Shown here: positions 18,386 through 51,441 of the stretch, in pieces | Numbering within the stretch: position 1 is the stretch's first letter | Layout: each line of letters starts with the position of its first letter | Origin: Eubacterium sp. | Lineage (GTDB): Bacteria > Bacillota > Clostridia > Peptostreptococcales > Anaerovoracaceae | Length of the DNA: 64,000 nt | NCBI GenBank assembly: GCA_017533915.1 | Contig: JAFWHX010000005.1 | Location: forward strand, 186,001 to 250,000 | Reading direction: 5' to 3' | Translations under genes and position numbers: made by a program | The notes under the pieces: model-generated | The model's input: only the letters and a program-made list of their open reading frames with translations | Databases searched by the model: none | What the model was told of the DNA's origin: nothing

Positions 18386-19915
18386 ATGGGCAGAAATTAT
18401 CTTAAAAGTCTGAATAATCTTCTGACTAAAGGCCCGGAAAGGGTGATAGTCTCAAGAGCGATAAGAAAGGGAATACCGGAGACTGACGATTTTGCTGCGC
18501 GCATCCGCAGAGCGACGGAGAACGCAGACAGAAAAGAAAGTGAAAAGATTCTGAAAATGAATAAGAGGTATTATTCTCTTTCAAGATCTGTACAGATGAT
18601 GACAGAGCATATGCGCGCCGCCGGGGAGGATGAAGAACGGATAGCTAGAGTACACGAGATCAGAGACCAGATCCTGTATTCAGTCAGGCCGGAAGACGAG
18701 GAAGCTCTGGAGCTCCTTAGAGTGGAACTAATAGATCTGGAGTCAGATAGCTATAAGAAATATATCAAGGAACTCTATATAAAAAAGATCATACCCGATG
18801 TATACAGAAAGTTCGCCGACAGGCCTGTGGAGGATAAGATCCTGTTCCTGCAGCCTAGACGTACGCTGAATCCTAGCTGCAGATATATGTACAGGACTCT
18901 TATGGGAATGGAGAAGAGTGAGATCAGACTCTGCGAGCTGTACCATGGACGGGTGCCTCTGACGGAAGAATATAATAACTGCGTTGAGTTCATCAAGGAG
19001 ATGGCGACGGCAAGAGCAGTCGTTACGCATGAATTCAACGAATATTTCGGATATCTGGATATCCGTAAGGAAACGAAGCTGATCCAGCTGTGGCATGGAT
19101 GCGGAATCATCAAAGGCCTCGGTATGAGCACCGCAGGCATGGAGGGAGCTGAATTCAAATCACTGGAAGATTATAAAGAATATCCTGAGTTTGACGGCTA
19201 TGACCTGGTGACGATCCCGAGCGAGGCGGAGCGGCCGATATTTGAAGAGTTTATGGGGAGGCCGCACAACAGCCCAGAGATCAAAGCCATCGGAGTCAGC
19301 AGGACAGACGAGTTCTTCAGCGACAAATATAGAGAAAAGTGCTATAGAAAGCTTTACGAGAGGATCCCTGCGGCGAAGGAGAAGAAAGTCATCCTCTATG
19401 CTCCGACTTTCAGGGGGCTCGAGCCTGACAGATATGCGCCTGACGAGCTCGATATCAGAGCTTTTGCTGAAAGGCTGAGCGACCGGTACATCCTGATAAT
19501 AAAGCACCATCAGACTGCAAAGGTCCTTCCTGAGATCCCTGATGAATATAATGGGACATTTGCCTTTGACATGACACACGGCAGCGGGATGGATGTAAAT
19601 GAGCTTATGACTGTAAGCGATATATGTATAACTGACTACTCATCGCTCGTATTTGAATTCTCACTTTTTGAAAGGCCGGTGGCATTCTTCATGTTCGACA
19701 AGGACGAATACAGAGATCAGCGCGGCATGTACTATACGTACGAGGAGCTGTCAGAATGCGGGCCGATATTTGAGACTAATGAAGATGTGATAGAGTACAT
19801 AGATGATATTGAAAACAGGTTTGATAAAGAAAAAGTCACGTCATTCCGTGACAGATATATGAATGCATGCGACGGTCATGCGACAGAACGCATAATCGAT
19901 TTTATATACAGCTGA
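18386..19915 (+). CDS. CDP-glycerol glycerophosphotransferase family protein (WHG/KHH type)
   Basis: First gene of the surface-polymer locus. 509 residues with a helical, charged N-terminal third and a C-terminal Glyphos_transf domain (TagB/TagF family): IQLWHGCGIIKGLG, GVSRTDEFF, LYAPTFRG, IIKHHQTAK and the nucleotide-sugar motif ITDYSSLVFEFSLF. The family transfers glycerol phosphate or ribitol phosphate from the CDP form to a growing teichoic-type chain at the inner membrane face. Its closest relative here is the gene at 41471, with the same KHH motif and the same CDGHATER tail. Acceptor and unit transferred are unknown. Confidence 0.88.
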   Translation: MGRNYLKSLNNLLTKGPERVIVSRAIRKGIPETDDFAARIRRATENADRKESEKILKMNKRYYSLSRSVQMMTEHMRAAGEDEERIARVHEIRDQILYSVRPEDEEALELLRVELIDLESDSYKKYIKELYIKKIIPDVYRKFADRPVEDKILFLQPRRTLNPSCRYMYRTLMGMEKSEIRLCELYHGRVPLTEEYNNCVEFIKEMATARAVVTHEFNEYFGYLDIRKETKLIQLWHGCGIIKGLGMSTAGMEGAEFKSLEDYKEYPEFDGYDLVTIPSEAERPIFEEFMGRPHNSPEIKAIGVSRTDEFFSDKYREKCYRKLYERIPAAKEKKVILYAPTFRGLEPDRYAPDELDIRAFAERLSDRYILIIKHHQTAKVLPEIPDEYNGTFAFDMTHGSGMDVNELMTVSDICITDYSSLVFEFSLFERPVAFFMFDKDEYRDQRGMYYTYEELSECGPIFETNEDVIEYIDDIENRFDKEKVTSFRDRYMNACDGHATERIIDFIYS

Positions 19916-20023
19916 TCCTTATGGTCAGCCGGCACCTGACGCCGGTCGCAAATAAAGGCCGGATATGGTAAAATACAAGTACTGAAAAAGGCACAAGGAT
20001 CTGCGGCAAAGGAGAATCATTAC

Positions 20024-23000
20024 ATGAAAAGTACCTTCAGGAAGAAAATAGAAAGATTCTTTACTTCCACGACACATCGCAAATACCTGTACGGTATATT
20101 TTATAAATACTCTGGAATAAAGAATAATGTCATACTGCTGGAATCGTTCAATGGAGAATCTATCAATGATTCCAGCCTTGTTTTTGCAAGGGAGATCCAG
20201 AGACTGTATCCCGGAAGATTCAAAGTGTATTTCTCTTCGTCGGATGTCAAGAAACACAAGATCCTCATAGACCGTGAGAAGCTGGACGTCGAGCTGGTAG
20301 ACGTCAACACGGTCAAATACATGAAGCTTCTCGCTACAGCGAAATATTTCATATCTAATGCTTCGATCTCCACATTCTACACGAGACGTCCGGGACAGGT
20401 GTTCCTTCAGACATGGCACGGTACACCTCTCAAGACCCTTGGAAAGAAAATGAACAAGGGCAGCGCGTCGATGGGCACAGGACAGCACAGTATGCTCCAG
20501 GCTTCGCATCTTATGTTCCCGAATGAGTTCACCAGGAAAGTGATGATGGAAGACTATAATCTGGACAGGCTGTATACAGGAAAGGTCATAATGTCGGGGT
20601 ATCCGAGGAATCAGGTGTTCCTGCAGGACGGTAAAGCAGAAGAGATCCGGAAAAGATTCGAGCTTGCTGACAAGACAGTTTATGCGTATATGCCTACATG
20701 GAGAGGAACCAGCGCGGCTGACGTAAATGTCGGCGACTATATTAACAAGCTGAGAGGCATATTCAAGAAGCTGGATAAGACACTGAGAGATGACCAGGTA
20801 TTCTACGTCAATTTCCATCAGATGCTCAAGACGTCGATCAGCTTCAAGGGATACAAGCATATAAAAGAATTTCCTAAAGACGTCGATACATATTCATTCC
20901 TCAACGCTTCGGATGTTCTGGTGACGGATTACTCCAGCGTGATGTTTGATTACATGTTGACGGGAAAGCCTATCATGCTGTTCATGTACGACTATGACCA
21001 GTATCTTGCTGACCGCGGACTGTATCTTGACATAAAGACACTTCCGTTCAGGCAGATCTACAAAGAAGCGGATTTCTACGACTGCATGAAAAAAGATCTC
21101 TGCCTTAATGACAGATATGACGACACGGAATTCTACAAGTCGTTCACACAGTATGAAGACGTGGACAATCCGGAGAGACTGCTCAAGATGATCATCGACG
21201 ACGACTACTCGGGACTTGAGGTAAAGGATTACGCGTTCAACAAAGAGCGTCCGATGAAAGTGTTCATGCCGATCAAAGTTGACAGGGAATCTGATTTCAC
21301 CACATTCCGGGAAGTCGCGAATGACAGGGATTCCGTAGTACTGCTTCAGCGTAAATGGCTTAACGATGATCTCGGGCAGCTGCTGCATGATAAGTATATG
21401 GACTCGTTCAATTATGTCATCACGACGACAGCTTACGCGAGGACTTATATTGAGATGCTGCTCTACAAGCTGGGCTTTGAGGGCAGCACCAATTCGATAA
21501 ACGACAGAAATATAAAAAGATGCTTCGGTGAGCTGAATATAAAAGAACAGGTCACTGAGTATGGATGCTTCAGGGACTTCTGTCAGATCGATCCGAAAGA
21601 TGTGATACTGGTCCAGGGCGAGCTTGGCAATTACGGGCCTGCAAGCCTTGATATTACTATAAAAGATGAGATGGATATGAAAGTGGAAAGTGTAGCTGTT
21701 CTTGATGAGAAGAACACGATACTTTCAAGACGTGATCCATCTGATGAAGAGCTCAGGACTAAGACTTTCCATTATGATTTCAGGAAACAGATAGAGGACA
21801 CGCTGTTCCCTAACAAGAGCAGCGCTTCCGCAGGCCTGATCGTAACAGATGATAATGGGGACCTCAAGCTGGTAAAGTATACCGACAGAGAACGCGCAGC
21901 ACATGTCAGGCCTAAGAATACCGACAGGAAGATGATCTCATATGATCCTCTGTTCTACAGCTGCGAGCTGCCAAAGGAATTTATGATGAGGAAGACCTCA
22001 TACATGTTCCTTACAAAAGAGGTAAGCGATGAGCCTGAGATGCAGAACGTCAGTATCGTACCTTATATCGACCAGGCGTGCTCCATATCGTTCAGGGTAT
22101 GCAACGATGACAAATCCATAGAATACGCTACTGATCTCGGACAGCTTCTCTCAATAAGCTGCCACGGCAGGACCATGCGTATCAGAGTTCTTATGAAGAG
22201 CTGGAAGAGGGATAAAAAGAATCTGGAAGGTATCGTTCTGAAATATATATCCAGGATCAATGAAGAGCTTGAAGTGCCGCTTAAGACCACTTTTATTGAA
22301 AAAGGAGACGATATAATACTTGACGGTTCTTTGACCGTCGGTCCTGATACGGGATTGAAGCCGGTCAACTGGGGAGGCCTTGTAAAGATCAGATATGGCG
22401 GGACCTATCGGTATCTCAGGATAGTGACAAAGAACTTCTTTAAGAAAGAGGCATTTTTCTTAAAGGGCATGCAGACAGACTGCGGTGACGATTATATAAT
22501 CTTCCCGTTCATCAACTCGTGGGGCACGCTGAAATTCATGTACAGGCTGAAGTCGCAGTACGACACTCCTCTGGTCAAGGTAAAAGAAGCTGTCGCGCTT
22601 GCTGCATCGCCATTTGCCCGCCTGTTCCTGAAACATAATATAGTCATATTCGAGAAGTTCAGCAATACAGCGCAGGACAACAGCTATTACTTCTTCCTCT
22701 ACTGCATGAATGAGCTGCCGGAAGAAAAGAAGAAGCATATATTCTACGTGATAGATAAGGCTTCGCCTGATTATCAGGCTGTAAAGAAATACGACAGGAA
22801 CGTCATACAGTTCATGAGCCTTAAGCATATGATATATGCGCTCACGATGGAGGCCTGCGTATCCACGGATGCGAAAGTCCATTTCTATGCATGGCAGAGC
22901 AAGCCGAGCAGAGTGTTCGAAGAGATCATGCTGAAGCCGGAGATGTTCCTGCAGCACGGAGTAACGGCGCTCAAGAAAGTAGACAGACTCTTCGGAAAGC

Positions 23001-23737
23001 ACTCTGTCAACCCGATGAAGTGGTTCGTCGTTACCTCCAAGAAAGAGAAAGACCTCGTCGTAAAAGAATTTGATTATAAGCCGGAGTTCGTGCCGATCAC
23101 AGGATTCACGAGATGGGACGTTCTGCACGATAAGAGAGATCCGGAAGACAGATTCATCCTCATGATGCCTACATGGAGAGCGTGGCTTGAGGATGCGACG
23201 AACGAGCAGTTCCAGGAAAGTGATTATTATAAGAGATATGTGGAGCTGATATCAAAGCCTGAGCTTGCTGACCTGCTGAGGGAGAACGGGCTGTATCTCG
23301 TTCTGTATCTGCACCCGAAATTCGCCCAGTACATAGAGACATTCCAGAGCGTGAAGGATGAGCTGATCAGATGCGTCCCGTTCGGGCAAGAACCGCTCAA
23401 TGAGATCATGATGAGGGCAGAAATGCTGGTAACGGACTACTCCAGCGTCTGCTGGGACATGATGTTCATGAACAAGCCGGTAGTGTTCTATCAGTTCGAC
23501 AGAGATACATATCTGACAGCACATGGATCATATCTGGACCTTGAGAAGGATCTTCCGTCTGATAATACCAGAGACGGCGATGATGTGATCAGATATATGA
23601 AAGACTATATTGAAAACGGATTCCAGATAAAGGACGAGTACCGTGAGCAGGTTGATTCATTCTATGCCTTCAGGGATACGAAGAACAGCCAGCGTACATA
23701 TGAGTATCTGATGCGCCAGCTGGGACTCCTGAAATAA
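20024..23737 (+). CDS. Giant tandem-domain CDP-glycerol glycerophosphotransferase (first of a pair)
   Basis: A 1237-residue protein with two transferase domains. Domain 1 (about 35-400) shows TWHGTPLKTLGKKM with His132, MSGYPRNQVFL, YMPTWRGTS, VNFHQML and VTDYSSVMFDYML. A middle region (about 400-850) is rich in beta strands and matches nothing I can name. Domain 2 (about 850-1237) shows FLQHGVTALKKVDRLFGKH with His978, GFTRWDVL, MPTWRAWLED, LYLHPKF and VTDYSSVCWDMMF. Both domains keep the histidine expected in catalysis. It could add two different units or two linkages, as fused bifunctional teichoic or capsule polymerases do. A paralog lies at 29720. No signal peptide. Confidence 0.9.
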   Translation: MKSTFRKKIERFFTSTTHRKYLYGIFYKYSGIKNNVILLESFNGESINDSSLVFAREIQRLYPGRFKVYFSSSDVKKHKILIDREKLDVELVDVNTVKYMKLLATAKYFISNASISTFYTRRPGQVFLQTWHGTPLKTLGKKMNKGSASMGTGQHSMLQASHLMFPNEFTRKVMMEDYNLDRLYTGKVIMSGYPRNQVFLQDGKAEEIRKRFELADKTVYAYMPTWRGTSAADVNVGDYINKLRGIFKKLDKTLRDDQVFYVNFHQMLKTSISFKGYKHIKEFPKDVDTYSFLNASDVLVTDYSSVMFDYMLTGKPIMLFMYDYDQYLADRGLYLDIKTLPFRQIYKEADFYDCMKKDLCLNDRYDDTEFYKSFTQYEDVDNPERLLKMIIDDDYSGLEVKDYAFNKERPMKVFMPIKVDRESDFTTFREVANDRDSVVLLQRKWLNDDLGQLLHDKYMDSFNYVITTTAYARTYIEMLLYKLGFEGSTNSINDRNIKRCFGELNIKEQVTEYGCFRDFCQIDPKDVILVQGELGNYGPASLDITIKDEMDMKVESVAVLDEKNTILSRRDPSDEELRTKTFHYDFRKQIEDTLFPNKSSASAGLIVTDDNGDLKLVKYTDRERAAHVRPKNTDRKMISYDPLFYSCELPKEFMMRKTSYMFLTKEVSDEPEMQNVSIVPYIDQACSISFRVCNDDKSIEYATDLGQLLSISCHGRTMRIRVLMKSWKRDKKNLEGIVLKYISRINEELEVPLKTTFIEKGDDIILDGSLTVGPDTGLKPVNWGGLVKIRYGGTYRYLRIVTKNFFKKEAFFLKGMQTDCGDDYIIFPFINSWGTLKFMYRLKSQYDTPLVKVKEAVALAASPFARLFLKHNIVIFEKFSNTAQDNSYYFFLYCMNELPEEKKKHIFYVIDKASPDYQAVKKYDRNVIQFMSLKHMIYALTMEACVSTDAKVHFYAWQSKPSRVFEEIMLKPEMFLQHGVTALKKVDRLFGKHSVNPMKWFVVTSKKEKDLVVKEFDYKPEFVPITGFTRWDVLHDKRDPEDRFILMMPTWRAWLEDATNEQFQESDYYKRYVELISKPELADLLRENGLYLVLYLHPKFAQYIETFQSVKDELIRCVPFGQEPLNEIMMRAEMLVTDYSSVCWDMMFMNKPVVFYQFDRDTYLTAHGSYLDLEKDLPSDNTRDGDDVIRYMKDYIENGFQIKDEYREQVDSFYAFRDTKNSQRTYEYLMRQLGLLK

Positions 23738-23842: not shown

Positions 23843-24943
23843 GTGAACAGAAAAGCAATCATCAAGACGATCATCGGGGGTGTAATATTCCTCGTATTAT
23901 TGTCAGTAATACTGACATTCCTCGGGAAGTATCTGCTTCCGTATGAGCATTTTGTGGATCGGCAGCAATGCATGTATTATAACTTCCCAAAAGATACTGT
24001 GGATGTTTTGTGCACCGGAAACAGCGCGTTCAGACAGGGGTTCTCTCCCAACACTTTATGGCACGAATATGGCATCGTGGCATATTCCAGAGTCGACTCC
24101 AGGCAGAGTCCGGAGCTTACATATTTTGAGGTGAAAGACACTCTGGAGAGACATCATCCGAAACTGGTCATCATGGGAGTCCCGAGGCTTTTCCAGGAAT
24201 ATGATTACGTTGAGAACGAGCCGCTTCTCAGAAGGTCCATGGATTATAAGAAGCTTACTTTCCAGAAGATAAAAACAGCTGCCGCGCTGTCTTCGCATAC
24301 TGATATAAAAGAGACTGTAAGCTACATATTCCCTCTCATCAGATACCATTCGAGATGGAATGAAGTTACACGTGAAGAAGCAGAAGAAGCAGATATAAAA
24401 GACCGTGATATCTGGAGAGGTGAGTTCCGTGTAAATCAGCTGAAGGTACTTCAGCCATGGTCATTTTATGACTCAGATAAAGAGGTGCCGGAATACAGCA
24501 AAAAAGCGATAAAATGGTACGAGAAGACCTTGGAGCTTTGTAATAGGAAAGGCGTAAAAGTGCTCATCGTCACTATGCCTGAAGTTACGAATACAGTCGG
24601 CATGAATATCGGCACACAGGAATTTGCTGACAAGTACGGAGCTGATTATCTCGATTTCACTACTGATGAGCTCATAAAAGAGACAGGGATCAAGTTTGAT
24701 GAAGATTTCCAGGGCGGGCATCACCTTGCCATAACCGGAGCTCGCAAAGTATCAAAGTATATCGGCGAATATATCGTAAAAAAATATGGCATTCCTCAGT
24801 GGGAATGCTCAGATGAGCTGACAAAGATGCTCGATGAAGATTATGAAGCGTATACAGAAGAATACGAAAGCTCTGTCAAGAAGCTTCAGAAGCAGATGAA
24901 GGAAGGCCCTGATGAGACCGATTCAGCCGAGAACTGCGGCTGA
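23843..24943 (+). CDS. Membrane-anchored SGNH/AlgJ-DltD-like protein, possible polymer O-acyltransferase
   Basis: 366 residues with one N-terminal membrane segment (IIGGVIFLVLLSVILTFLGKYLL) and an outside domain. CTGNSAFRQGFSP resembles the first block of SGNH hydrolases such as DltD and AlgJ/AlgX, and DFQGGHHLAITGARK resembles the late block carrying the histidine; KVLIVTMPE is a central strand. Such proteins move acyl groups onto exopolymers together with a membrane O-acyltransferase. The acyltransferase-3 gene at 26537 could supply acyl chains. The start is a GTG with a weak site, so the exact N-terminus is unsure. The C-terminus is acidic and low in complexity. Confidence 0.65.
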   Translation: MNRKAIIKTIIGGVIFLVLLSVILTFLGKYLLPYEHFVDRQQCMYYNFPKDTVDVLCTGNSAFRQGFSPNTLWHEYGIVAYSRVDSRQSPELTYFEVKDTLERHHPKLVIMGVPRLFQEYDYVENEPLLRRSMDYKKLTFQKIKTAAALSSHTDIKETVSYIFPLIRYHSRWNEVTREEAEEADIKDRDIWRGEFRVNQLKVLQPWSFYDSDKEVPEYSKKAIKWYEKTLELCNRKGVKVLIVTMPEVTNTVGMNIGTQEFADKYGADYLDFTTDELIKETGIKFDEDFQGGHHLAITGARKVSKYIGEYIVKKYGIPQWECSDELTKMLDEDYEAYTEEYESSVKKLQKQMKEGPDETDSAENCG

Positions 24944-26436: not shown

Positions 26437-26536
26437 CTCATGCCGGAACAGATGAGATCAGTATATATGACTGGTCTGATCAGGTGGTTCCGCATGTCGT
26501 CATCAAAACCAGTTAAGTTTGTCAAGAGGTCAGGAT

Positions 26537-27601
26537 ATGGCTCGTGAGCCGGGTAAAACAGCTAAAAGAATACGATTCCTGGATGTTGCCAAGGGGATAG
26601 GCATCCTTATGGTAACTTTCGGCCATATCACCGAGCTGGACAATCCTGTCGATCATTATATGTCACTATATAAGATCACGCTTTTCTATTTTGTCTCCGG
26701 CTATCTGATCTCGTATCTTGACAGATATAAAGAAACTGGATACGTAAAGTACTTTCTCAGCGTATGCAGGCATATCGGCCTTCCGTATGTCCTGTTCAGC
26801 ATAGCCGCGATCGGTGTCAGAGTCTACAGGGCGTTCGTCAGGATGAAGCCCGTCGAGACTGTATTCCATGAGCAGCTCATGAAAGCGGTGACACTTCAGG
26901 GAATAGCCACCTTGTGGTTCCTTCCTACTATCTTCTTCGCTCAGATAATGATCTTCATTATAGTCAAAAACAGCGATCACATAATCGGAAAAGTCGCTCT
27001 GGCATCTGTATTCTTCTGGCCTCTGGCAGTACTGACATACTGGAATACTTATACTCCTGAGCTCGGGCCACAGTCAGTTGCCGCAAAGAGTTTCATCGCA
27101 GCCTGGTTCATGGCTGCCGGGTTCGTATATCATAAACTGCTGCAGGATCACATCGATCCAAGGCTCAGGTTTGTTCTCGGCGTTCTGCTGACCGGCCTTA
27201 CGTTCTGGCTGGCGAGGTTCAGCATGAACATCGATTTCAACCTTATGAATTTCGGAGACGCGCCGTGGGTGTTCTTTGTTGGCGGCATCACCGGCTCCCT
27301 CGGCCTCATTATGGTCCTCGAAGGCCTGGAGAATATATATGTTCCGAAGCTTCTTGAATACTTCGGTATCAATTCGCTTATCATCATGTGCGCTCAGAGA
27401 GGGCTACTGTTCCTGAACGTCATAATGGAAGGATGGGGCGCCATGTTCAAGCTTACAGATTTTGTATGTCCTGACTATTATATCGAGAGAGTATGCATTC
27501 TGATACTCCTTCTCTTCATGTCGGCAGGCCTTATCGAGCTTATCAAAGGCGCCAAAGCATATTTCTCAGACCTGCTGAACAGAAGCGGCCAGCCGTCCTG
27601 A
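26537..27601 (+). CDS. Acyltransferase family 3 integral membrane protein
   Basis: About 354 residues with roughly ten hydrophobic segments. The start RIRFLDVAKGIGILMVTFGHI is the signature of the OafA/NodX acyltransferase-3 family, with the histidine used in acyl transfer. YFVSGYLISYL and FLPTIFFAQIMIFI are typical later helices. Such proteins acylate sugars or polyols of envelope polymers across the membrane. ATG 26537 is preferred to a TTG 18 bases upstream because GAGGTCAGGA precedes it. Likely substrate: the polymer made by the surrounding locus (inference). Confidence 0.85.
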   Translation: MAREPGKTAKRIRFLDVAKGIGILMVTFGHITELDNPVDHYMSLYKITLFYFVSGYLISYLDRYKETGYVKYFLSVCRHIGLPYVLFSIAAIGVRVYRAFVRMKPVETVFHEQLMKAVTLQGIATLWFLPTIFFAQIMIFIIVKNSDHIIGKVALASVFFWPLAVLTYWNTYTPELGPQSVAAKSFIAAWFMAAGFVYHKLLQDHIDPRLRFVLGVLLTGLTFWLARFSMNIDFNLMNFGDAPWVFFVGGITGSLGLIMVLEGLENIYVPKLLEYFGINSLIIMCAQRGLLFLNVIMEGWGAMFKLTDFVCPDYYIERVCILILLLFMSAGLIELIKGAKAYFSDLLNRSGQPS

Positions 27602-37458: not shown

Positions 37459-38478
37459 ATGAACATACTTGTGACAGGTGCAGCAGGATTCATCGGCAGC
37501 AATTTCGTATATTATATGCTCGAGAAGCATCCGGAGGACAGGATAGTGGCTCTGGATGCTCTTACATATGCGGGGAATCTAGAGACGCTTGAAGAAGCGC
37601 TCGAGAATAAGAATTTCAAATTCATAAAAGGCGACATCTACGACAAGAAGCACGTCTTTGAGATCTTCAGAGAGGAAAAGCCTGACATAGTCGTGAACTT
37701 TGCCGCTGAGACGCATGTCGACAGGTCGATCGAGGATCCGGGTATCTTCGTCAGGACGAACGTCGGCGGTACACAGGTGCTCCTTGACGCTGCGACAGAG
37801 TTCGGCGTCACGAGATTCCATCAGATAGGGACTGATGAGGTGTACGGCGATCTTCCTCTCGACAGGCCTGACCTGTTCTTTAAGGAGGACATGCCTCTCA
37901 AGGCCAGCAGTCCGTATTCCGCGAGCAAAGCCTCTGCGGATCTGCTTACGATGGCATACCATCGTACATACGGGCTTCCGGTCACGATCTCACGCTGCTC
38001 GAACAACTATGGACCGTACCAGTTCCCGGAGAAGCTCATACCGCTCGTTATATACAGAGCTGAAAACGATGAGAGCATACCGGTATACGGAACAGGGGAC
38101 AATGTGCGCGACTGGCTGTACGTAATGGATCACTGCTCCGCGATCGACCTCATCATGAGGGACGGCCGCGACGGAGAGATATACAATATAGGCGGACATA
38201 ATGAAAGAAACAACATTACAGTAGTCAGAAGGATCCTTGAGTATCTTGGAAAGCCTGAAAGCCTTATCACGTTTGTTACAGACAGGAAAGGCCACGATAA
38301 GAGATACGCGATCGATCCTGAGAAAACGAAGAAGGAGCTCGGCTGGGAACCTGAGACCAGATTCGAGGACGGCATCGGCATGACGATCGACTGGTATCTG
38401 GAACACAGGTCATGGTGGGAGCACATCGTTTCCGGAGACTATCAGAACTATTATCAGAAGATGTATGGAGACAGGTAA
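37459..38478 (+). CDS. rmlB: dTDP-glucose 4,6-dehydratase
   Basis: 339 residues of the extended SDR fold: NAD motif VTGAAGFIGSNFV, THVDRSI, GTDEVYGDL with the catalytic Asp-Glu pair, and YSASKAS with Tyr and Lys. It converts dTDP-glucose to dTDP-4-keto-6-deoxyglucose. The stop overlaps the next start (TAATG), so a transferase is translated directly after it. The sugar could end as rhamnose, fucosamine or another deoxysugar depending on enzymes encoded elsewhere. Confidence 0.96.
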   Translation: MNILVTGAAGFIGSNFVYYMLEKHPEDRIVALDALTYAGNLETLEEALENKNFKFIKGDIYDKKHVFEIFREEKPDIVVNFAAETHVDRSIEDPGIFVRTNVGGTQVLLDAATEFGVTRFHQIGTDEVYGDLPLDRPDLFFKEDMPLKASSPYSASKASADLLTMAYHRTYGLPVTISRCSNNYGPYQFPEKLIPLVIYRAENDESIPVYGTGDNVRDWLYVMDHCSAIDLIMRDGRDGEIYNIGGHNERNNITVVRRILEYLGKPESLITFVTDRKGHDKRYAIDPEKTKKELGWEPETRFEDGIGMTIDWYLEHRSWWEHIVSGDYQNYYQKMYGDR

Positions 38479-40249: not shown

Positions 40250-41008
40250 GTGAGCAAGAACATTGCAGTGATCTTTGCGGGCGGCTCCGGGATCAGGATG
40301 GGAAGCGGCATGCCTAAGCAGTTTCTCAAGATAAACGGACAGCCGATCATAATCTATACGCTGGAGATCTTTGAGGACAGCCCGGATATAGATGAGATAT
40401 ATATCGCCTGCAAAGAAGACTACATAGGCAAGATGAACAAGTACATCAGGCGGTATCAGCTCCAGAAAGTGAAGAAGATCGTGCCTGGCGGTGAAACCGC
40501 GCTTGACTCAATATACAACGGGCTCTGCGCGGTGGCTGAAGATAACGATCCAGACTCAGTGGTCCTTATCCACGACGGCGTGCGGCCGTTCATACCGGAA
40601 TCGATAATCACAGCAAACATCGACTGTGTGGAAAAGCACGGAAGCGCGATAACATGCACCCCGATGTATGAGACGCCTATAAGAAGCGACGGCGGCGAGA
40701 TGATAGAAGAAGTCATACCGAGAGACATAATGTTCACGGCTCAGGCTCCGCAGAGCTTCCGTCTGGGAGATATCAAAGCGTCATATGAAAAGGTCAGGTC
40801 TCAGGGAAGCACTGAGGGGCTGGTCGACTCCTGCTCGATATACAAAAAAGCAGGGCATGACGTTGCGCTCGTACGCGGAAACCGCGGTAATATCAAAGTA
40901 ACTACGCCTGAAGATCTTTATCTGTTCCGCGGGCTCCTGAACTACAAGGAGACGCAGCAGACCATGGGCTTCACTGAAAACGAGATGGAAGCAGATTATA
41001 GAAAATAA
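40250..41008 (+). CDS. IspD/TarI family cytidylyltransferase
   Basis: 252 residues with FAGGSGIRMGSGMPKQFL, the CTP-binding start, then VLIHDGVRPFI and TTPEDLYLF. The family splits into IspD (methylerythritol 4-phosphate) and TarI (ribitol 5-phosphate). Position beside TagD and polyol-phosphate transferases favours TarI, and thus CDP-ribitol, but no ribitol-5-phosphate reductase (TarJ) is seen. It could also be the cell's IspD. The start is GTG. Confidence 0.85.
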   Translation: MSKNIAVIFAGGSGIRMGSGMPKQFLKINGQPIIIYTLEIFEDSPDIDEIYIACKEDYIGKMNKYIRRYQLQKVKKIVPGGETALDSIYNGLCAVAEDNDPDSVVLIHDGVRPFIPESIITANIDCVEKHGSAITCTPMYETPIRSDGGEMIEEVIPRDIMFTAQAPQSFRLGDIKASYEKVRSQGSTEGLVDSCSIYKKAGHDVALVRGNRGNIKVTTPEDLYLFRGLLNYKETQQTMGFTENEMEADYRK

Positions 41009-41066
41009 CGGTATGTCCGGGGTGGGACATGCTCAGCATATGATTTATACAGAAAAGGACAGAAAG

Positions 41067-41456
41067 ATGAAAAGAGTAATAACTTACGGGACATATGATC
41101 TTCTGCACTACGGACATGTCAATCTTCTGAGAAGAGCCAAGGAATACGGTGATTATCTTATCGTCGCGCTTTCCACTGACGAGTTCAACTGGGAGATGAA
41201 GCAGAAGAAGTGCTATTTCAGCTACGAGATCAGGAAGCAGCTCGTTGAATCCATCAGATACGTGGATCTGGTGATCCCTGAAGAAAGCTGGGATCAGAAG
41301 ATAAGTGATGTCAAGGAGTATCATGTGGATACATTCGTTATAGGCGACGACTGGAAAGGAAAATTCGATTTTCTGAAAGACTACTGTGAGGTAGTATATC
41401 TTCCAAGGACTCCGGAGATCTCGACCACGCAGATCAAAAAAGACCTGGGCAAATAA
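41067..41456 (+). CDS. tagD: Glycerol-3-phosphate cytidylyltransferase
   Basis: 129 residues, the exact size of TagD, with YGTYDLLHYGH (the HxGH nucleotidyl-transfer motif), VALSTDEFN and the C-terminal RTPEISTTQIKK corresponding to the RTEGISTT motif. It makes CDP-glycerol, the donor for the transferases around it. ATG 41067 follows AAAGGACAG; an earlier in-frame start is unlikely. It is the strongest single proof that the locus builds a glycerol-phosphate polymer. Confidence 0.95.
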   Translation: MKRVITYGTYDLLHYGHVNLLRRAKEYGDYLIVALSTDEFNWEMKQKKCYFSYEIRKQLVESIRYVDLVIPEESWDQKISDVKEYHVDTFVIGDDWKGKFDFLKDYCEVVYLPRTPEISTTQIKKDLGK

Positions 41457-41470: not shown

Positions 41471-42853
41471 ATGGGTATTAAAGGTGTTCTGAAAAATATA
41501 AAAAAGTACGGCGCTTACGGGACGTGGAAGCTCTACAGGCAGAGAGATGAAGAACGGAGGCACGTGGCGGATCAGCAGCGTGCGTTCCTGGAAAAAGAGA
41601 AAGAGCAGGGAGCTTTTACAGGGGATGAGCCTGAATATAAAGAGTACCTCAGGAGGCTTGACGAACCTAAGGGATTCAAGGCTTATCTGAGAGAGCTGCA
41701 TGACCGCGTCACCCGCGACGAGCTCCCCAGAATCTACGAAGAAGCGTCCAAGGCGCCTGTAGAAGATAAGATAATCGTGATGGAGCGTGGGTACGCGCCG
41801 TCTCCTTCTAGTGCGCATCTTGCTGAAGTGCTGGAATCACAGGGCAGATACAGGATCGTTTACATGAGCATGGAGATACGCAATTGTACGTTCCTGAAAT
41901 ATTATAATAATGTAAAAGAATTCATCAGAGAGCTCGGGACCGCAAAGGCGGTCCTCATCACTACTGCTAATGATTACCTCAGCTATATAGACCTCCGTCC
42001 GGAGACCAAAGTGATACAGCTCTGGCACGGAGTCGGTACATTCAAGAAGATCGGATACAGCACCATATCAAGCAGGAGTTTCGGCCTGAGCCAGCAGTAC
42101 AGGGACGAGTTCGATCAGTATAAAAACTACTCGTACGTCACAATCGCCTCAGAGGAACAGGCATGGATATTCGAGGACGCGATGCATATAAGCCGCGATT
42201 CAGGGATCCTTGCGCCTGTGGGCATCTCACGTACTGACCTTTTCTACGACGATGAATATAAAGCAGAAGCGAGAAGACGGCTGAACGAGTTCTGTCCCGG
42301 AATAAACGGACGGAAGATATTATTATATGCTCCGACTTTCAGAGGGACCGTGAACAACGCCAAGGCACCTGATAAGCTTGACGTGGAAGCGTTCGGAGAG
42401 GCTTTATCAGAGGACTATGTGCTGCTTATCAAGCACCACAGCGTCTGCGAGAACAGAAGGCCGCCGATACCTGAAAAATGGGCAGGAAGCTTTGCCTACG
42501 ACATCAACGCATCGACTGAGATAAGCATAGAAGATCTTCTCGTACTCGCCGATGTCTGCATCACCGACTATTCATCGATAGCGTTCGAATATTCCATACT
42601 CGAGCGCCCGATACTCTTCTTTGCATACGATCTGGACGACTACATCGACGAGCGCGGCATGTACCTTGACTACAGCGAGCTTACGCCGGGTCCTGTCTGC
42701 CGCACCAACAAAGAGATGATAGAATATATCAAAGCCCTTCCGGGAAGCTTTGAGGGGGAGTATGCGGACGAGATACATGCATTCAGGCAGAAATATGTGA
42801 ACAGATGCGACGGCCACGCGACTGAGCGGACCATAGCTTTGATAGAAAAATAG
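41471..42853 (+). CDS. CDP-glycerol glycerophosphotransferase family protein (WHG/KHH type, second copy)
   Basis: 460 residues. A charged helical N-terminus (about 1-90) precedes the transferase domain: IQLWHGVGTFKKIGYST, GISRTDLF, LYAPTFRGT, IKHHSVCE, ITDYSSIAFEYSIL and the tail CDGHATER. It is the paralog of the gene at 18386. It starts 15 bases after tagD, so donor synthesis and use are co-translated. Confidence 0.88.
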   Translation: MGIKGVLKNIKKYGAYGTWKLYRQRDEERRHVADQQRAFLEKEKEQGAFTGDEPEYKEYLRRLDEPKGFKAYLRELHDRVTRDELPRIYEEASKAPVEDKIIVMERGYAPSPSSAHLAEVLESQGRYRIVYMSMEIRNCTFLKYYNNVKEFIRELGTAKAVLITTANDYLSYIDLRPETKVIQLWHGVGTFKKIGYSTISSRSFGLSQQYRDEFDQYKNYSYVTIASEEQAWIFEDAMHISRDSGILAPVGISRTDLFYDDEYKAEARRRLNEFCPGINGRKILLYAPTFRGTVNNAKAPDKLDVEAFGEALSEDYVLLIKHHSVCENRRPPIPEKWAGSFAYDINASTEISIEDLLVLADVCITDYSSIAFEYSILERPILFFAYDLDDYIDERGMYLDYSELTPGPVCRTNKEMIEYIKALPGSFEGEYADEIHAFRQKYVNRCDGHATERTIALIEK

Positions 42854-42878: not shown

Positions 42879-43973
42879 ATGAAGAGCAGCATTATCGACG
42901 AAGACGTAAAGCGCATACTAGAAAACGACCTCCCGTGGGATGTGTTCCGGGGGAAGACGATTCTGATAACAGGTGCGAGCGGTATGATACCGTCGTATTT
43001 TTTATATACCTTCCTGGCTTTGAATGACCTTAAGGACATGGATGTAAAAGTGATCGCGCTTGTAAGAAACGGCGAAAAGGCAAAGCGTGTGCTCGGGAGC
43101 ATGCTCGACAGGGACGACGTCACGCTCGTGTGCCAGGATGTGGCGGAGCCGCTTGAATTTGATGGGCGTATAGACTATGTCTTCCATGGCGGAAGCGCGG
43201 CAAGGCCGGCTCAGCATAAGACGTCGCCGACATCCACGATCAGGGCAAACCTTGTGGGGACGTTCAATCTTCTTGACAGGGCAGTGAAGGACAAGTCAGA
43301 GGCATTCGTGCTGATGTCATCGTCGGAAGTGTACGGCCAGCAGCTTAAGAATAAAGACGCAGAAAGGCTGGACAGTGATGACAGCAAGCCTCTGAATGCG
43401 ATAACTGAGGATGATTACGGCAGGGTCGACACTCTTGATCCGAGGTCATGCTATTCTGAAGGCAAGCGCGCTGCGGAGACGATCTGCGCCTGCTATAATG
43501 CAGAATATGGGATCCGCGTGCTCTGCCCGAGATTCGCGCATATATACGGACCCGGTCTGGCTCTTGATGACGGAAGAGTACAAGCGGACTTCGCCGCAAA
43601 CGTGATAAAAGGCGAGGATATAGTTATGAACAGCGACGGGAGCTCCGTCAGAGCCTATACTTACGTCGCCGATGCGTGCGCCGGTGTATTCTACGCGCTG
43701 CTCAAAGGCGACGGCATCGCATACAATATCTCGGACAATAACAGTATCATATCTATCAGAGAACTCGCCGAGGCGTTCGTTGCCTCGCGGCCGGAGAAAG
43801 GCCTCAAGGTCGTGATCAAAGCCCAGATTGACGGCTCGAGAAGCTACAACAAAGTCAGCTTTATCGGTCTGGACGGAAGCAGGCTCGAAGCACTCGGCTG
43901 GAAGGCGGAAGTGCAGGTCGGCGAGGGTACGAAGCGCATGATCTCACATTACGAAGAGACAGGCGAGAAATAG
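42879..43973 (+). CDS. NAD-dependent sugar epimerase/dehydratase (extended SDR)
   Basis: 364 residues with a Rossmann start ITGASGMIPSYFLY, HGGSAARPAQ, the strand VLMSSSEVYG and YSEGKRAAE with catalytic Tyr and Lys. The layout resembles UDP-glucuronate decarboxylase and related nucleotide-sugar enzymes (RPRFAHIYGPG-like segment). The precise sugar is not predictable. It starts 26 bases after the transferase gene and belongs to the same transcript; it may supply a nucleotide sugar for the polymer linkage or side chain. Confidence 0.85.
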   Translation: MKSSIIDEDVKRILENDLPWDVFRGKTILITGASGMIPSYFLYTFLALNDLKDMDVKVIALVRNGEKAKRVLGSMLDRDDVTLVCQDVAEPLEFDGRIDYVFHGGSAARPAQHKTSPTSTIRANLVGTFNLLDRAVKDKSEAFVLMSSSEVYGQQLKNKDAERLDSDDSKPLNAITEDDYGRVDTLDPRSCYSEGKRAAETICACYNAEYGIRVLCPRFAHIYGPGLALDDGRVQADFAANVIKGEDIVMNSDGSSVRAYTYVADACAGVFYALLKGDGIAYNISDNNSIISIRELAEAFVASRPEKGLKVVIKAQIDGSRSYNKVSFIGLDGSRLEALGWKAEVQVGEGTKRMISHYEETGEK

Positions 43974-43994: not shown

Positions 43995-45806
43995 ATGTAT
44001 TCTGGCAAGGTCCTCGATATCTCCTGGGAAAGAGTATTCCTCACGATCTCAGGAGAGATGAGAAAGATCACAAGTGAAGAAGAAAAGCGCAGGCTGCTCC
44101 TTACGAGATATAAAGGCCTGTACGCCGAGCGTGAAAACAAGCGGGCGCAGACGGGCCCGTCATTTTCTGATGACTATATCGAGAGCTGTTTCAGAAGACA
44201 TGCTGACGATCTCATACGTGTTATCGGAAACAGCTATGATCCTGATAAGATCTATGTCTTCTTAAGGAACGAAGATTATCTCAACGCATTTCTCATAAGT
44301 GAGCTGGCTGAAGACACGGCAGAAGAACAAGAGACTGGCGCCGGCAGCGCAGAAACAGCAGAAGAGTCATGCATCATTCCATTCAGTGTAACGCTGAACG
44401 TGACTACTTTCCAGGGACGCCGCCAGATCCCTGACGGTATCTATTACCTGTCGATATTCCACAATGGGATAGACTTTGAGGCCGGGATATCTGTCGAGCT
44501 GGCAAAGAAGAGCTTCGAGCTGTCCAGGCCTTTTGTATTCGACAAAAGAAGGCAGTGCTACCTGGTCGACTTTTTCGCGACTGTCGACGAACAGGATCCG
44601 TGTATGAAAATGCAGGTGATGCTTGCAAGGACAACGATCAAAAAGAAATTTGAGATGTCGCGCTTCATCCGCGAGGCGAGGGACAGCATCATTAAGAAGC
44701 TGATCACATTCTATTATAACGTCATTTACAGCATCTCTCCGCATAACGGTAAAAATATCCTGTTCTCTACCGAGTCAAGAGGTAAGATGTCAGGAAATCT
44801 GAAGGCGGTCTATGACCGCATGATAGAGCGTGGACTGGATAAGAAATACAGGATAAGTATCTCTGAAAGGAGAGCAGCCGGGGGACATTCAAGCAGAGCG
44901 TCATGGATAAAGACAGTCACGCTCTTCGCGAAAGCTGATGTGATCCTGATCGACGACTATGCGCCGATGCTGTCATGGATGAAGCTGAATAAAGGAACAA
45001 AGCTGATCCAGCTGTGGCACGCAGGCGTCGGATTCAAGTCGGTCGGGCTCTGCAGATTCGGGCAGAACGGATCGCCGCTCCTTGACAATGCGCACAGGCA
45101 GTATGACTACGCTGTCGTCGGATCTACTGCATTAAAGAAGATCTACGCTGAAGTGTTCGGGATCGAAGAAGCTGCTCTTATTCCTACCGGTCTTCCGAGG
45201 ATAGATAAAGTAATAGACAAGAAAGAGAACCAGAAGAAGGCAGATGCGTTCTATGCAGACCATCCGGAGCTCAAGGGCCGCCGGCTGATACTGTTCGCTC
45301 CAACATTCAGAGGAGTAGGAGCGCTCACAGCCACATATCCGTATGAGAAGCTGGATATGAAGCAGATCTACGACATGTGCGGCGGCGAATATACTTTCAT
45401 CTTCAAGATGCATCCGTTCATAAAGGAAAAACCGTCGATACCTGAGGAATATCGGGACCGCATCATCGATCTGAGCGGGATCGGGGATATAAACGATCTT
45501 CTTCCTGTTATAGATATACTGATAACAGACTATTCATCTGTTATATACGAATTCTCACTGTTCAGGAGGCCGATGATATTCTTCGCGTATGACCGCGACA
45601 GTTATGCCGCGATAAGAGGATTCCAGAGCGATTACGACAACTTCGCTCCGGGGAAGATCTGCAGCACGTTCGATGAGGTCGAGCAGGCCATCAGATCACA
45701 TGACTTCCAGCTGGAGAAAGTTGACCGCTTCGTGTCAGAGAATTTCGATCATCTTGACAGCGGGTCTACAGACAGATTCATAGACTGGCTGCTGTCTATA
45801 ATATAA
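43995..45806 (+). CDS. CDP-glycerol glycerophosphotransferase family protein (WHA/KMHPFI type, second copy)
   Basis: 603 residues. An N-terminal beta-rich domain (IPDGIYYLSIFHNG, about 80-215) resembles that of the gene at 38478, and the transferase domain shows IQLWHAGVGFKSVG, GLPRIDKV, FAPTFRGVG, FKMHPFIKE and ITDYSSVIYEFSLF. It ends the long operon before a perfect hairpin. A Glu/Ala/Thr-rich insert lies near residues 103-124. Confidence 0.88.
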   Translation: MYSGKVLDISWERVFLTISGEMRKITSEEEKRRLLLTRYKGLYAERENKRAQTGPSFSDDYIESCFRRHADDLIRVIGNSYDPDKIYVFLRNEDYLNAFLISELAEDTAEEQETGAGSAETAEESCIIPFSVTLNVTTFQGRRQIPDGIYYLSIFHNGIDFEAGISVELAKKSFELSRPFVFDKRRQCYLVDFFATVDEQDPCMKMQVMLARTTIKKKFEMSRFIREARDSIIKKLITFYYNVIYSISPHNGKNILFSTESRGKMSGNLKAVYDRMIERGLDKKYRISISERRAAGGHSSRASWIKTVTLFAKADVILIDDYAPMLSWMKLNKGTKLIQLWHAGVGFKSVGLCRFGQNGSPLLDNAHRQYDYAVVGSTALKKIYAEVFGIEEAALIPTGLPRIDKVIDKKENQKKADAFYADHPELKGRRLILFAPTFRGVGALTATYPYEKLDMKQIYDMCGGEYTFIFKMHPFIKEKPSIPEEYRDRIIDLSGIGDINDLLPVIDILITDYSSVIYEFSLFRRPMIFFAYDRDSYAAIRGFQSDYDNFAPGKICSTFDEVEQAIRSHDFQLEKVDRFVSENFDHLDSGSTDRFIDWLLSII

Positions 45807-45807
45807 G

Positions 45808-47693: not shown

Positions 47694-48995
47694 ATGTGGA
47701 AAAGAGAGGCAAGGAAGGTTTTGATCGTAGAGCTGCTTGAGAGAACGAATAACATCAAGAGAAGCGCTTATGTGTGGAATGCCATAAACGCCATGCTTTC
47801 GGCGCTCCAGTGCCCGGTAGTCCTCATGTTCGTGACGAGGATCGGCGGCATGAAGGACGCGGGGGTGTTCAGTATCGCTTTCGCGGTCTCCAGCCTGATG
47901 CTTTATATCGGGCTGTACGGACTCAGGAGATTCCAGGCGTCGGACGTTAACGAGGAGTTCAGGTTCTCGGATTACAACGGGATGCGCTTCATCACTTGCG
48001 GCGCGATGATGGCGGCGTCATTAGGCTACTGCGCGTACGGCATAGCTTTCAACAGCTATTCAACAGTGAAAGCTGCGATCGTTTTCCTTGTCTGTGTGCT
48101 CAAGCTCGTGCAGGCTTACACGGATGTGATCCACGGCAACATGCAGCAGAAAGGCAGGCTCGACGTCGCGACCAAGTGCTCAGCCGTGAGATATGTTCTG
48201 GAGGTAGCCGCGATAATCGTGACGATGTTCATTACAGGCGACCTTCTGATCTCAGTAGCAGTGAGCGCCGCGGTGTCAGTTATAGTAATGATGTTCACAT
48301 CAGTCGCGGCAGGACGTAAGTACTGCGATACGTACATGCCGAGGTTTGAGAGAAAACAGATCAGGGCGCTTACGATCGATGGCTTCCCGCTGTTCGCAAG
48401 CCTGTTCCTGAACATGTATATCAGCAATGCTCCTAAATATGCGATAGATGCCTATCTGACAGAAGAGATCCAGGCAGTGTACAATCTTATTTTCATGCCG
48501 GCTTTCATGGTGATGCTGCTGTCAAATTTCATTTTCAATCCGATCATCAAATCTTATGCTGAGCTCTGGCTCTCCGGGACAGCAGAGCAGCATAAAGAGC
48601 TGTGGCGCAGGATCAGGATGCAGCTTCTGTTCGTGCTTTGGCTTACCGTGCTCGGGCTTGCAGTAGCTGCGACGATAGGTATACCGATGCTCAGCCTGAT
48701 CTTCGGAACTGATCTGTCTGATTATAAGAATGAGCTCTGTATCGTTATGATCGGAGGCGGCGCGCTTGCATACGCGACATATTTCAGTACAGTCATCACT
48801 ATAATACGTGAGCAGAAAAGCATGATAATCTGCTATGGGATCGCTGCCGCGGCGGCATACGTGCTGTCGGGGATCCTGGTGAAGTCATACGGCATCATGG
48901 GAGCTTCTGTCATGTATGCGATAATAATGACAGTGCTTGCAGTACTTCTTGGCGCGATAACGATCTGGAACCTGAATGAAAAACTGAAGAAATAA
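47694..48995 (+). CDS. Wzx-like polysaccharide flippase (MOP superfamily)
   Basis: 433 residues with about 12 hydrophobic segments, no signal peptide and the layout of polysaccharide transporters/flippases: an N-terminal helix pair followed by ALQCPVVLMFVTRIGG, a central charged loop (RFERKQIRALTIDGFPLFASLFLNMYISNAPKYAID) and a C-terminal half with SLIFGTDLSDY. It should move lipid-linked repeat units across the membrane. This adds a second export route besides the ABC pair. TATAAT at 47668-47673 is close upstream; a TTG at 47721 with AAGG before it is an alternative start. Confidence 0.82.
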   Translation: MWKREARKVLIVELLERTNNIKRSAYVWNAINAMLSALQCPVVLMFVTRIGGMKDAGVFSIAFAVSSLMLYIGLYGLRRFQASDVNEEFRFSDYNGMRFITCGAMMAASLGYCAYGIAFNSYSTVKAAIVFLVCVLKLVQAYTDVIHGNMQQKGRLDVATKCSAVRYVLEVAAIIVTMFITGDLLISVAVSAAVSVIVMMFTSVAAGRKYCDTYMPRFERKQIRALTIDGFPLFASLFLNMYISNAPKYAIDAYLTEEIQAVYNLIFMPAFMVMLLSNFIFNPIIKSYAELWLSGTAEQHKELWRRIRMQLLFVLWLTVLGLAVAATIGIPMLSLIFGTDLSDYKNELCIVMIGGGALAYATYFSTVITIIREQKSMIICYGIAAAAAYVLSGILVKSYGIMGASVMYAIIMTVLAVLLGAITIWNLNEKLKK

Positions 48996-49027: not shown

Positions 49028-49057
49028 ATGACATATGTCAGACGTAAAGGATATAAT
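49028..49057 (+). promoter_or_regulatory. Promoter with 12-base palindrome before the radical SAM gene
   Basis: ATGACA (49028-49033), 18-base spacer, TATAAT (49052-49057). TGACATATGTCA (49029-49040) is a perfect palindrome covering the -35, a typical operator position. Confidence 0.5.
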
Positions 49058-49085
49058 AAGATAATATTTACGGAGTGGTAGTTAT

Positions 49086-50192: not shown

Positions 50193-50202
50193 AGAAGATA
50201 CA

Positions 50203-50229
50203 GCCCCGCTGAGGAAGCGGGGCTTTTTT
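50203..50229 (+). terminator. Terminator after the radical SAM gene
   Basis: GCCCCGCT (50203-50210), loop GAGGA, AGCGGGGC (50216-50223), then six T. Confidence 0.93.
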
Positions 50230-50233
50230 ACTG

Positions 50234-50279
50234 CGTAAAAGAAGACCCGGGGCTGTCTGTCATGGCGCCGGGTCTTTTC
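50234..50279 (-). terminator. Terminator for the convergent TagB-like gene
   Basis: AAGACCCGG (50242-50250) and CCGGGTCTT (50268-50276) pair. On the minus strand the stem ends in TCTTTTACG, and on the plus strand it is followed by TTCT, so it may act both ways. Confidence 0.65.
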
Positions 50280-50301
50280 TGGTATATGAGGTTTTGTCAG
50301 G

Positions 50302-51441
50302 TCATGAGATATGGCTGAAGATGAACTCCGTGATATCCGCTGTCTCATGCCCGGTCGTCCGGACATACTTGTGCAGGAAGCTCGCAAGTCTGTCATAGTC
50401 ATAGCTTTCCATGTCATCGATCGCTTCCGCAAGAGATGCCGCGTCTCCTTCCATCGGACCCGGGATCTCTTTTTTATAGTCCATGTAGATGCTGCGGGTG
50501 GACATGTACTCGTCATAGTCATATGTGTAGAAATACAGCGGTTTCATGAGGATCGCCGCCTCATAGATTATACAGCTGTAGTCTGAGATCACTGCGTCGG
50601 CCGCGAGAAGCATGTCCATGGATGAGAATTCATCACATGTGAGGAAGTTCCCGCTGGTGCTGAACTTCTGTCCGTGGTATAAGGAGAGCGGATGCGCCTT
50701 TACTATGAGATTGTATTTCTCAGGGTCCAGCGCGGCGGCAAGGTCGTGGAGCGCTTTATCAAAATCTTCATCGTCAGCCTTCCGGAATGTCGGCACATAT
50801 ACTATATTCTTCTTTCCGTTCTTAAGCTCAGGGTATGCCGCGAAGATCTCATCCAGCTTTCTGTCTATGTATTTCCTGTCCTGAAGGAGCTCGACCCGCG
50901 GAAGTGGAAAGATCTTTATGATAGACGAGTCTACATTGAATCCCTGAGCCAGATGATCGCGGTATCCTTCTCCCGCACAGAGTACATAGGAGTAGCCGTG
51001 ATGCATCTTCATGAGATGAGCGATCTTTGATGACGATCCTTCAGGCTTGTCGAGGATGCTGTAGCCGAATTTCTTCATCGTGCCTACGGAGTGCCACATC
51101 TGTATGACAAGAAGTGATCTTCTGTGAGTGAGCACGCTTGCGGCGATGCAGTACGAGTCCAGGATGAGAGCTTTTGATGTCGCCATGTGATACTCCTGAC
51201 GGAGGATATGGAAAGCATATGAGATCTTGCTGAGAATGCCGCTGTTCAGCATCCTGCACAGCATCACGACTTCGCAGTCAGGATGCTCGCGCTTTATCTC
51301 ATCTGCGAGCATATTAAAATCAAGCGACGGCTCATCCGCCTGTCTGCTGATGAATACTATTTTGTTCTTCACCGGAAACAGCTTGAACAGCTGGTAGAAC
51401 AACTGCATCACTGCGATCGCGGCTTTGACAAGTATCGTCAT
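50302..51441 (-). CDS. CDP-glycerol:glycerophosphate glycerophosphotransferase, TagB-like
   Basis: 379 residues, a single-domain member like TagB/TarB, which adds the first glycerol phosphate to the lipid-linked disaccharide primer. Motifs: an amphipathic N-terminal helix (VKAAIAVMQLFYQLFKLF) for membrane contact, IQMWHSVGTMKKFGYS, FPLPRVELL, VYVPTFRKAD, VKAHPLS and ISDYSCIIYEAAIL. It is the most TagB-like and lies apart from the rest on the other strand with its own promoter. Confidence 0.88.
   Translation of the reverse strand: MTILVKAAIAVMQLFYQLFKLFPVKNKIVFISRQADEPSLDFNMLADEIKREHPDCEVVMLCRMLNSGILSKISYAFHILRQEYHMATSKALILDSYCIAASVLTHRRSLLVIQMWHSVGTMKKFGYSILDKPEGSSSKIAHLMKMHHGYSYVLCAGEGYRDHLAQGFNVDSSIIKIFPLPRVELLQDRKYIDRKLDEIFAAYPELKNGKKNIVYVPTFRKADDEDFDKALHDLAAALDPEKYNLIVKAHPLSLYHGQKFSTSGNFLTCDEFSSMDMLLAADAVISDYSCIIYEAAILMKPLYFYTYDYDEYMSTRSIYMDYKKEIPGPMEGDAASLAEAIDDMESYDYDRLASFLHKYVRTTGHETADITEFIFSHIS

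Follow-up and report, generated by a model that had tools for sequence, protein, structure and literature searches.

How many wall polymers should be read from a locus that carries seven genes for CDP-polyol phosphotransferases? The question is raised by a 64,000-nucleotide window (the whole stretch of DNA analyzed here) on contig JAFWHX010000005.1 of the Eubacterium sp. assembly GCA_017533915.1, where PF04464 was found in all seven genes named as transferases between positions 18386 and 51441, with two copies each in those at 20024 and 29720. A preliminary description of this DNA had counted the same seven genes and nine domains, all of which scored above the Pfam cut-off, and had explained them by duplication of a full transferase set serving two polymers, or one polymer with alternating units, behind one exporter. 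The locus is real, unusually full, and teichoic-acid-like, and it is assembled from known parts. The look-alike transferases, however, appear from their sequences to belong mainly to old subfamilies that were inherited separately, and not to have arisen by recent copying. The explanation preferred here, to which we give about even credence, is one highly variable locus resembling those for wall teichoic acid (WTA), in which two supply modules are mixed with several old PF04464 subfamilies. The transferases were named by position, with N and C marking the two domains of T2 and T3, and with G005 and G014 denoting two congeneric genomes:

18386..19915, plus strand: T1, a single PF04464 domain of the WHG/KHH/CDGHATER subfamily, whose sister is a G014 gene and not T5 (Pfam, tree, motifs)
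20024..23737, plus strand: T2, a two-headed giant of 1237 amino acids, with an N domain on the TarF/TagF side, a middle region, and a C domain with QHG (Pfam, alignment, trees)
29720..33442, plus strand: T3, a two-headed giant of 1240 amino acids, whose C domain evolves fast and carries QPG, with a CCG proline codon at 32663, in place of QHG
38478..40202, plus strand: T4, TarL-like, its start overlapping the rmlB stop (TAATG) (Pfam, tree, motifs)
41471..42853, plus strand: T5, a single PF04464 domain, G005 ortholog at 71% (Pfam, tree)
43995..45806, plus strand: T6, TarL-like, G005 ortholog at 65% (Pfam, tree)
50302..51441, minus strand: T7, a TarB-side PF04464 enzyme and putative primase (Pfam, tree)

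Within the locus, the pairing proposed earlier was recovered. T2/T3, T1/T5, and T4/T6 are mutual best matches; T1 and T5 share the WHG, KHH, and CDGHATER motifs and 39.5% identity over 397 amino acids, T4 and T6 share WHA and MHPFI and 35.9% over 488 amino acids, and the collinear giants T2 and T3 align end to end with 48.6% over 1230 amino acids. A comparison with other species gave a different picture, as BLAST placed another species' gene ahead of the partner for T1, T3-N, T4, T5, and T6. For example, the domains of T4 and T6 are 66% and 74% identical to their own G005 orthologs but 42% to each other, and the T1 domain is 52% identical to the G014 gene but 40% to T5. Over whole proteins, T4, T5, and T6 are 58%, 71%, and 65% identical to their G005 orthologs, and the T6 domain shares 49% identity with a protein from Streptomyces. 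The exception was T2-N, whose best match is T3-N (58%), while the best matches of T3-N lie elsewhere.

A phylogeny was constructed from 50 of 270 full-length domains (a total that includes this genome's own and duplicate loci), comprising nearest relatives and references, with nine partial-domain proteins dropped. T1, T4, T5, and T6 were each sister to a gene from another species with 100% bootstrap. The approximately unbiased (AU) test rejected a clade of T4 and T6 (p 7e-65), of T1 and T5 (9e-64), and of T2-N and T3-N (0.006), the extremely small values being model-bound. With congeners and reference transferases in the tree, the members of T4/T6 and T1/T5 are not nearest neighbors, the outcome that the preliminary description had itself named as refuting, and for these two pairs its proposal of a duplicated set fails. 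For the giants the claim stood in one half: the C domains are sisters (100/98), but the N domains are not (AU p 0.006 and 0.04). T3 groups with G005 in the N-domain tree (93/91) and with T2 in the C-domain tree, with the alternatives mildly rejected (p 0.04 and 0.018), and this disagreement points to partly separate histories of the two halves.

The same 50-domain tree placed T4 and T6 in a clade with the TarL of S. epidermidis (93/99), T2-N and T3-N on the TarF/TagF side, and T1 and T5 in a clade without any reference sequence, while T7 grouped with the TarB of S. aureus. T6 also scored 272 bits with TarL against 98 with TagF among PDB sequences. The subfamily names are to be understood as "like" and not as "is", since no transferase reaches an NCBIfam equivalog cut-off: T4 and T6, TarL-like by tree only, scored 304 and 338 bits with the TarL model NF041713 (cut-off 1000), and T7 scored 95 bits with the TarB model NF041711 (cut-off 500).

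The two-headed architecture of T2 and T3 is widespread in Clostridia and was also found in records of Atopobiaceae and Erysipelotrichaceae. When three aligned giants were used as the query against a single genome from each species, 74 loci were identified; this search used two short peptide patterns and may miss giants. In these and earlier loci, our own profile together with a length filter recovered 44 tandem PF04464 proteins: 29 other giants, T2, T3, 11 proteins of other architecture, and two from duplicate records. With T2 and T3 counted in, 31 of these have the T2-like domain order. None of the papers listed by the literature searches deals with PF04464-PF04464 two-headed enzymes, as judged on titles and the openings of abstracts. 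A different type of multi-domain polymerase with two PF04464 domains, about 1520 to 1590 amino acids long, was observed in nine loci (L082, L083, L085 to L088, L090, L091, and L099; the L088 protein has 984 amino acids at a contig edge), seven of which also encode an IspD-like cytidylyltransferase and a short-chain dehydrogenase/reductase (SDR).

All 29 other giants have retained WHG in their first half and QHG in their second, and T2 keeps both. T3 alone has QPG in its second domain. At the level of motifs, the two catalytic histidines, which in TagF are H444 and H584 (PMC5974469; published work is cited here from excerpts), are present in eight of the nine domains of the locus, with T3-C having proline at the first. 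All nine transferase domains that had been counted are therefore present, but they probably amount to eight active sites, because QPG stands in the second domain of 29720 at the place of the QHG of 20024. A single-base sequencing error is an unlikely source of the proline, as CCG is two changes away from a histidine codon.

Substitution patterns set T3-C further apart. It deviates at 28 of the 105 columns that are invariant in 20 other giants, compared with 13 for T2, 11 for G005, and 11 for the giant of locus L047; at 110 such columns of the N domain, the deviations were 13 in T2, 10 in G005, and 7 each in T3 and L047. In relative-rate counts, T3-C was faster than T2-C with eight of eight outgroups (p 0.04 to 3e-7), while in the N domain T2 had more changes with all eight (p <0.05 in five). 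As a control, T2-N had 53 unique sites against 54 in the N domain of G005, indicating that T3-N is slow and not that T2-N is fast. A reciprocal decay, with T2 losing its first head and T3 its second, was considered and rejected, as T2-N is no faster than its G005 counterpart. By these counts the decay is confined to T3-C, with T3-N evolving slowly. The second domain of T3 has probably lost its activity, and T3 would then act through its first domain, where its best PDB match, Cps3D, is located (165 bits). Between the giants' middle region and the N-terminal region of the TarL-like proteins, hhalign detected no homology, a result compatible with a shared fold.

A one-headed T3 beside T2 would be workable: in Cps1B and Cps7D, no polymer is made once either the TagF-like domain or its partner is mutated, yet a pair of such mutants restores synthesis by complementation in trans (PMC5974469). 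A bolder form of this idea, which we consider unlikely, is that each giant acts as a two-headed copolymerase of polyol phosphates and that T2 and T3 form a natural split pair, in which T3 contributes a constrained first head on a dead scaffold of a second domain and T2 the working second head. If true, the split pair and a second CDP-alditol would make a teichoic acid with a repeat not yet described. Apart from this idea, the locus draws attention to a PF04464-PF04464 two-headed enzyme present in many gut Clostridia records, one natural copy of which lacks a conserved histidine.

The supply of activated polyols is encoded between T4 and T6:

40250..41008, plus strand: IspD/TarI-like cytidylyltransferase (NF001183, D-ribitol-5-phosphate cytidylyltransferase, 186.7 bits, cut-off 166)
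41013..41456, plus strand: TagD, glycerol-3-phosphate cytidylyltransferase (TIGR01518 above cut-off)
42879..43973, plus strand: extended SDR, probable CDP-alditol-forming reductase and partner of 40250 (PDB match, gene pairing)

Gene neighborhoods in other species suggest how these donors may be divided. Among 28 other giant loci (G005 excluded), a tagD homolog was found in the giant flanks of 14 of the 21 closer-clade loci and four of the seven more distant ones, whereas an IspD or SDR homolog was found in none of the 28. The flanks extended to 10 kb at most and some were cut by contig ends, making a missing neighbor weak evidence, and L007 and L009 count as two although they are near relatives. 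The distribution points to CDP-glycerol as the probable donor of the giants. The IspD/SDR pair is itself conserved: across 117 loci (window included; four loci from this genome or from duplicates left out), an IspD gene lies no more than 6 kb from 17 of 18 SDR homologs, L085 being the exception. Where the IspD is of the window's class (at least 45% identity), an SDR of the 42879 type was present in 17 of 17 loci. Another IspD class (30 to 34% identity) has a zinc-type dehydrogenase 0 to 7 bases away in seven of nine cases, the type being assigned by Pfam for one and by similarity to it for the rest. Both pairs co-occur in four loci (L005, L014, L082, and L091), suggesting two different alditols, and the teichoic-acid alditol to which the IspD/SDR pair points seems not to be ribitol. 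A homolog of the zinc-type reductase TarJ was absent from the window, the part of the genome searched for it, and the extended SDR stands there instead. On a Streptomyces plasmid, genes for a TarL-like protein, IspD/TarI, and the SDR adjoin one another. An N-terminal stretch precedes the Rossmann fold in 12 of 12 SDRs aligned. From this pairing, 42879 is the probable CDP-alditol-forming reductase partner of 40250. Because the locus holds both a TagD route and an IspD-like/SDR route to CDP-alditols, the earlier proposal that the polyol-phosphate units are of more than one kind gains support; the sequence is compatible with one polymer as well as with two.

Two kinds of unit need not mean two polymers, because ribitol WTA combines both in one chain: TagB, TarF, TarK, and TarL join glycerol-phosphate and ribitol-phosphate there (PMC3511166). 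Several PF04464 enzymes per chain are likewise normal, as these four share a chain and S. aureus duplicates tarIJL (PMC1458327). Under the single-chain explanation, T7 would act as a TarB-like primase, CDP-glycerol from TagD would be used by the TarF/TagF-side giants T2 and T3 to add glycerol-phosphate, and a second CDP-alditol, made by 40250 and 42879, would be used by the TarL-like T4 and T6, which probably divide the start and the extension of the chain in the manner of TarK and TarL. T1 and T5 would form a separate subfamily to which no place in the order of steps is assigned. The finished chain would be exported by TagGH and then attached to the wall by the LytR-CpsA-Psr (LCP) protein.

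The remaining genes of the locus include those for export and attachment:

23843..24943, plus strand: protein matched by neither Pfam nor NCBIfam and left unclassified, with homologs at 41% in giant locus L047 and at 20 to 25% in a few others
26519..27601, plus strand: family 3 acyltransferase (PF01757) that may modify the polymer (Pfam)
33571..34380, plus strand: TagG-like ABC-2 permease (Pfam; no NCBIfam TagG model matched)
34439..35218, plus strand: TagH-like ATPase (the NCBIfam models that it matches best, for subunits of teichoic-acid export, scored under cut-off)
35272..36522, plus strand: LCP glycopolymer transferase, for attachment to peptidoglycan (family matches)
36572..37450, plus strand: RmlA, glucose-1-phosphate thymidylyltransferase (TIGR01207 above cut-off)
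37459..38478, plus strand: RmlB, dTDP-glucose 4,6-dehydratase (TIGR01181 above cut-off)
47694..48995, plus strand: weak Wzx-like flippase, below the Pfam cut-off

A TagGH-type exporter and an LCP ligase are thus both present. The single exporter of the preliminary description agrees with the one TagGH pair, but the weak flippase at 47694 makes it uncertain that this pair is the sole one. L069, L072, and L094 also have homologs of the flippase (49 to 61%) in the neighborhood of their two-headed giants. Two genes of PF00953, a family that includes both TagO and MraY, lie in this genome. RmlC had no match in the genome and RmlD none above cut-off. Homologs of rmlB recur in the PF04464 loci L045, L069, L076, L078 to L080, L095, and L097 (73 to 75%) and in G005 (84%). 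Pfam scans of the locus proteins other than that at 27604, which we take to be a Maf-like protein, found no glycosyltransferase family above cut-off. At 57214 to 61762, a tRNA-Ser gene is followed on the opposite strand by an integrase, a relaxase, and an AAA/DnaB-like ATPase, resembling an integrated mobilizable element.

The source genome (2.19 Mb, 21 contigs, 96.9% completeness) encodes two further PF04464 genes outside the window. Its total of 11 matches was the highest in a set of 41 genomes to which it belongs; counts in the 16 congeners run from 0 to 8, so that the 17 genomes of the genus span 0 to 11. In a survey of the phylum, a match was found in 60 of 398 evenly sampled genomes, with 12 first-look candidates here and at most six in any other matching genome (a maximum of four candidates per genome was scored). 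The count is high yet not apart from everything, since T2-C as a query against 291 genomes of the class identified up to nine candidates in another genome.

The locus follows etfA, and the comparison with G005 (Eubacterium sp. isolate RGIG5802 from sheep ileum, whose contig is locus L046) distinguishes a stable part from a variable one. The two etfA genes are 96% identical, and G005 has the conserved run tagG-tagH-LCP-rmlA-rmlB-T4-ispD-tagD-T5-SDR-T6. The segment from etfA to tagG differs: T1 is absent from G005, and PF04464 proteins of 849, 544, and 1044 amino acids replace T2 and T3. All eight PF04464 matches of G005, an 88% complete genome, lie on this one contig, whose end comes after T6. 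Two other PF04464 proteins, L003:3158-5065 and L001:3553-5517, are 48% identical over 642 amino acids; one is encoded in the G005 etfA island, and the other belongs to this genome, where it lies some 33 kb upstream of etfA.

Several observations weigh against the single-chain explanation. The grouping of T7 with TarB is weak (83/91, with the TarB row on the longest branch), and in both NCBIfam and the PDB T7 scores highest with TarL. QHG is equated with a TagF catalytic histidine by motif, whereas in the profile alignment it comes some eight residues after the column of WHG. The best PDB match of the 42879 SDR is UDP-glucuronate decarboxylase (121 bits), ahead of CDP-6-glucitol synthase (82 bits). 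Donor linkage is not clean in G005, where the giant locus has both TagD and IspD, and the flippase leaves a second export route open. The TagA/WecG family (PF03808) was detected in seven of 14 controls and in none of the 17 genus genomes, this one included, so the canonical linkage unit would not be made in the known way. Finally, gene content, family membership, tree positions, the conserved pairs of donor genes, and the missing histidine are observed, whereas the substrate of each transferase, the order of steps, the nature of the second alditol, a single chain, and an inactive T3-C are what we infer from them.

Three other explanations compete with the single-chain one. Two polymers could be made, with TagD and the giants building a glycerol-phosphate chain and IspD/SDR with T4, T6, and T5 an alditol-phosphate chain, exported by TagGH and possibly by the Wzx-like flippase. 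Giants that elsewhere keep tagD but not IspD/SDR in their flanks would fit this, as would the side-by-side TarL-like, IspD, and SDR genes of the Streptomyces plasmid and the poly(Gro-P) and poly(Rbo-P) gene sets held together by L. plantarum (PMC3511166). We find it rather doubtful: the locus has a single TagGH pair, a single LCP gene, and a single TarB-side gene, ribitol WTA normally unites both unit types in one chain, and L. plantarum WCFS1 made glycerol WTA, with ribitol WTA appearing only in a tagF1-2 mutant (PMC3511166). Recent tandem duplication of the full set, the premise of the preliminary description, accounts for the mutual best matches within the locus, the sister C domains of T2 and T3, and the T2-N match to T3-N, but is highly improbable given the AU rejections and the five domains or genes with closer relatives in other species; for T4/T6 and T1/T5, BLAST comparison and tree rule it out.

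The locus could also be a serotype-like reservoir that gains and loses genes by recombination and holds redundant or decaying transferases, fewer than seven of which serve the present polymer. The spread of PF04464 counts across the genus, the altered etfA-to-tagG segment, the differing histories of the giants' halves, and the fast-evolving T3-C without its histidine all argue for this. It is nonetheless unlikely in our judgment, as both histidine motifs persist in eight of nine domains, T4, T5, and T6 are kept at 58 to 71% in G005, and the unusual conservation of T3-N ill fits a dying gene. Counting the genes of loci like this one says little about how many polymers are made, since most members are of old subfamilies that have been reassorted among species. 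What is specifically new is modest, namely the SDR/IspD pair and a giant in which one head has probably been lost.

Among known systems, the giants resemble the TagF-like capsule polymerases Cps3D, Cps7D, and Cps1B in being large, multi-domain proteins with a TagF-like domain; the second domain of those polymerases, however, is GT-A or GT-B, with TPRs in addition (PMC5974469, PMC11666461), whereas that of the giants is PF04464. The pairing of a cytidylyltransferase with an SDR recalls the CDP-6-D-glucitol and CDP-mannitol pathways (HS5.18/HS5.17 of C. jejuni, Mnp1/Mnp2 of pneumococcus), although the cytidylyltransferase here is of the IspD/TarI type and the SDR has its best PDB match in a decarboxylase. 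The glucitol enzyme HS5.17 has an extra helix before its Rossmann fold (PMC10918830), in the same place as the N-terminal stretch of the SDRs analyzed here. The tar loci of S. aureus, B. subtilis W23, and L. plantarum differ in having fewer PF04464 domains, TarJ where an extended SDR is found here, and no two-headed giants; here, no TagA was found in the genome, and RmlA and RmlB occur without RmlC and RmlD. Like those loci, this one combines TagD, a TarI-like enzyme, PF04464 transferases of the TarB, TarF, and TarL sides, TagGH, and an LCP protein, and the duplicated tarIJL of S. aureus provides a precedent for its multiplied genes.

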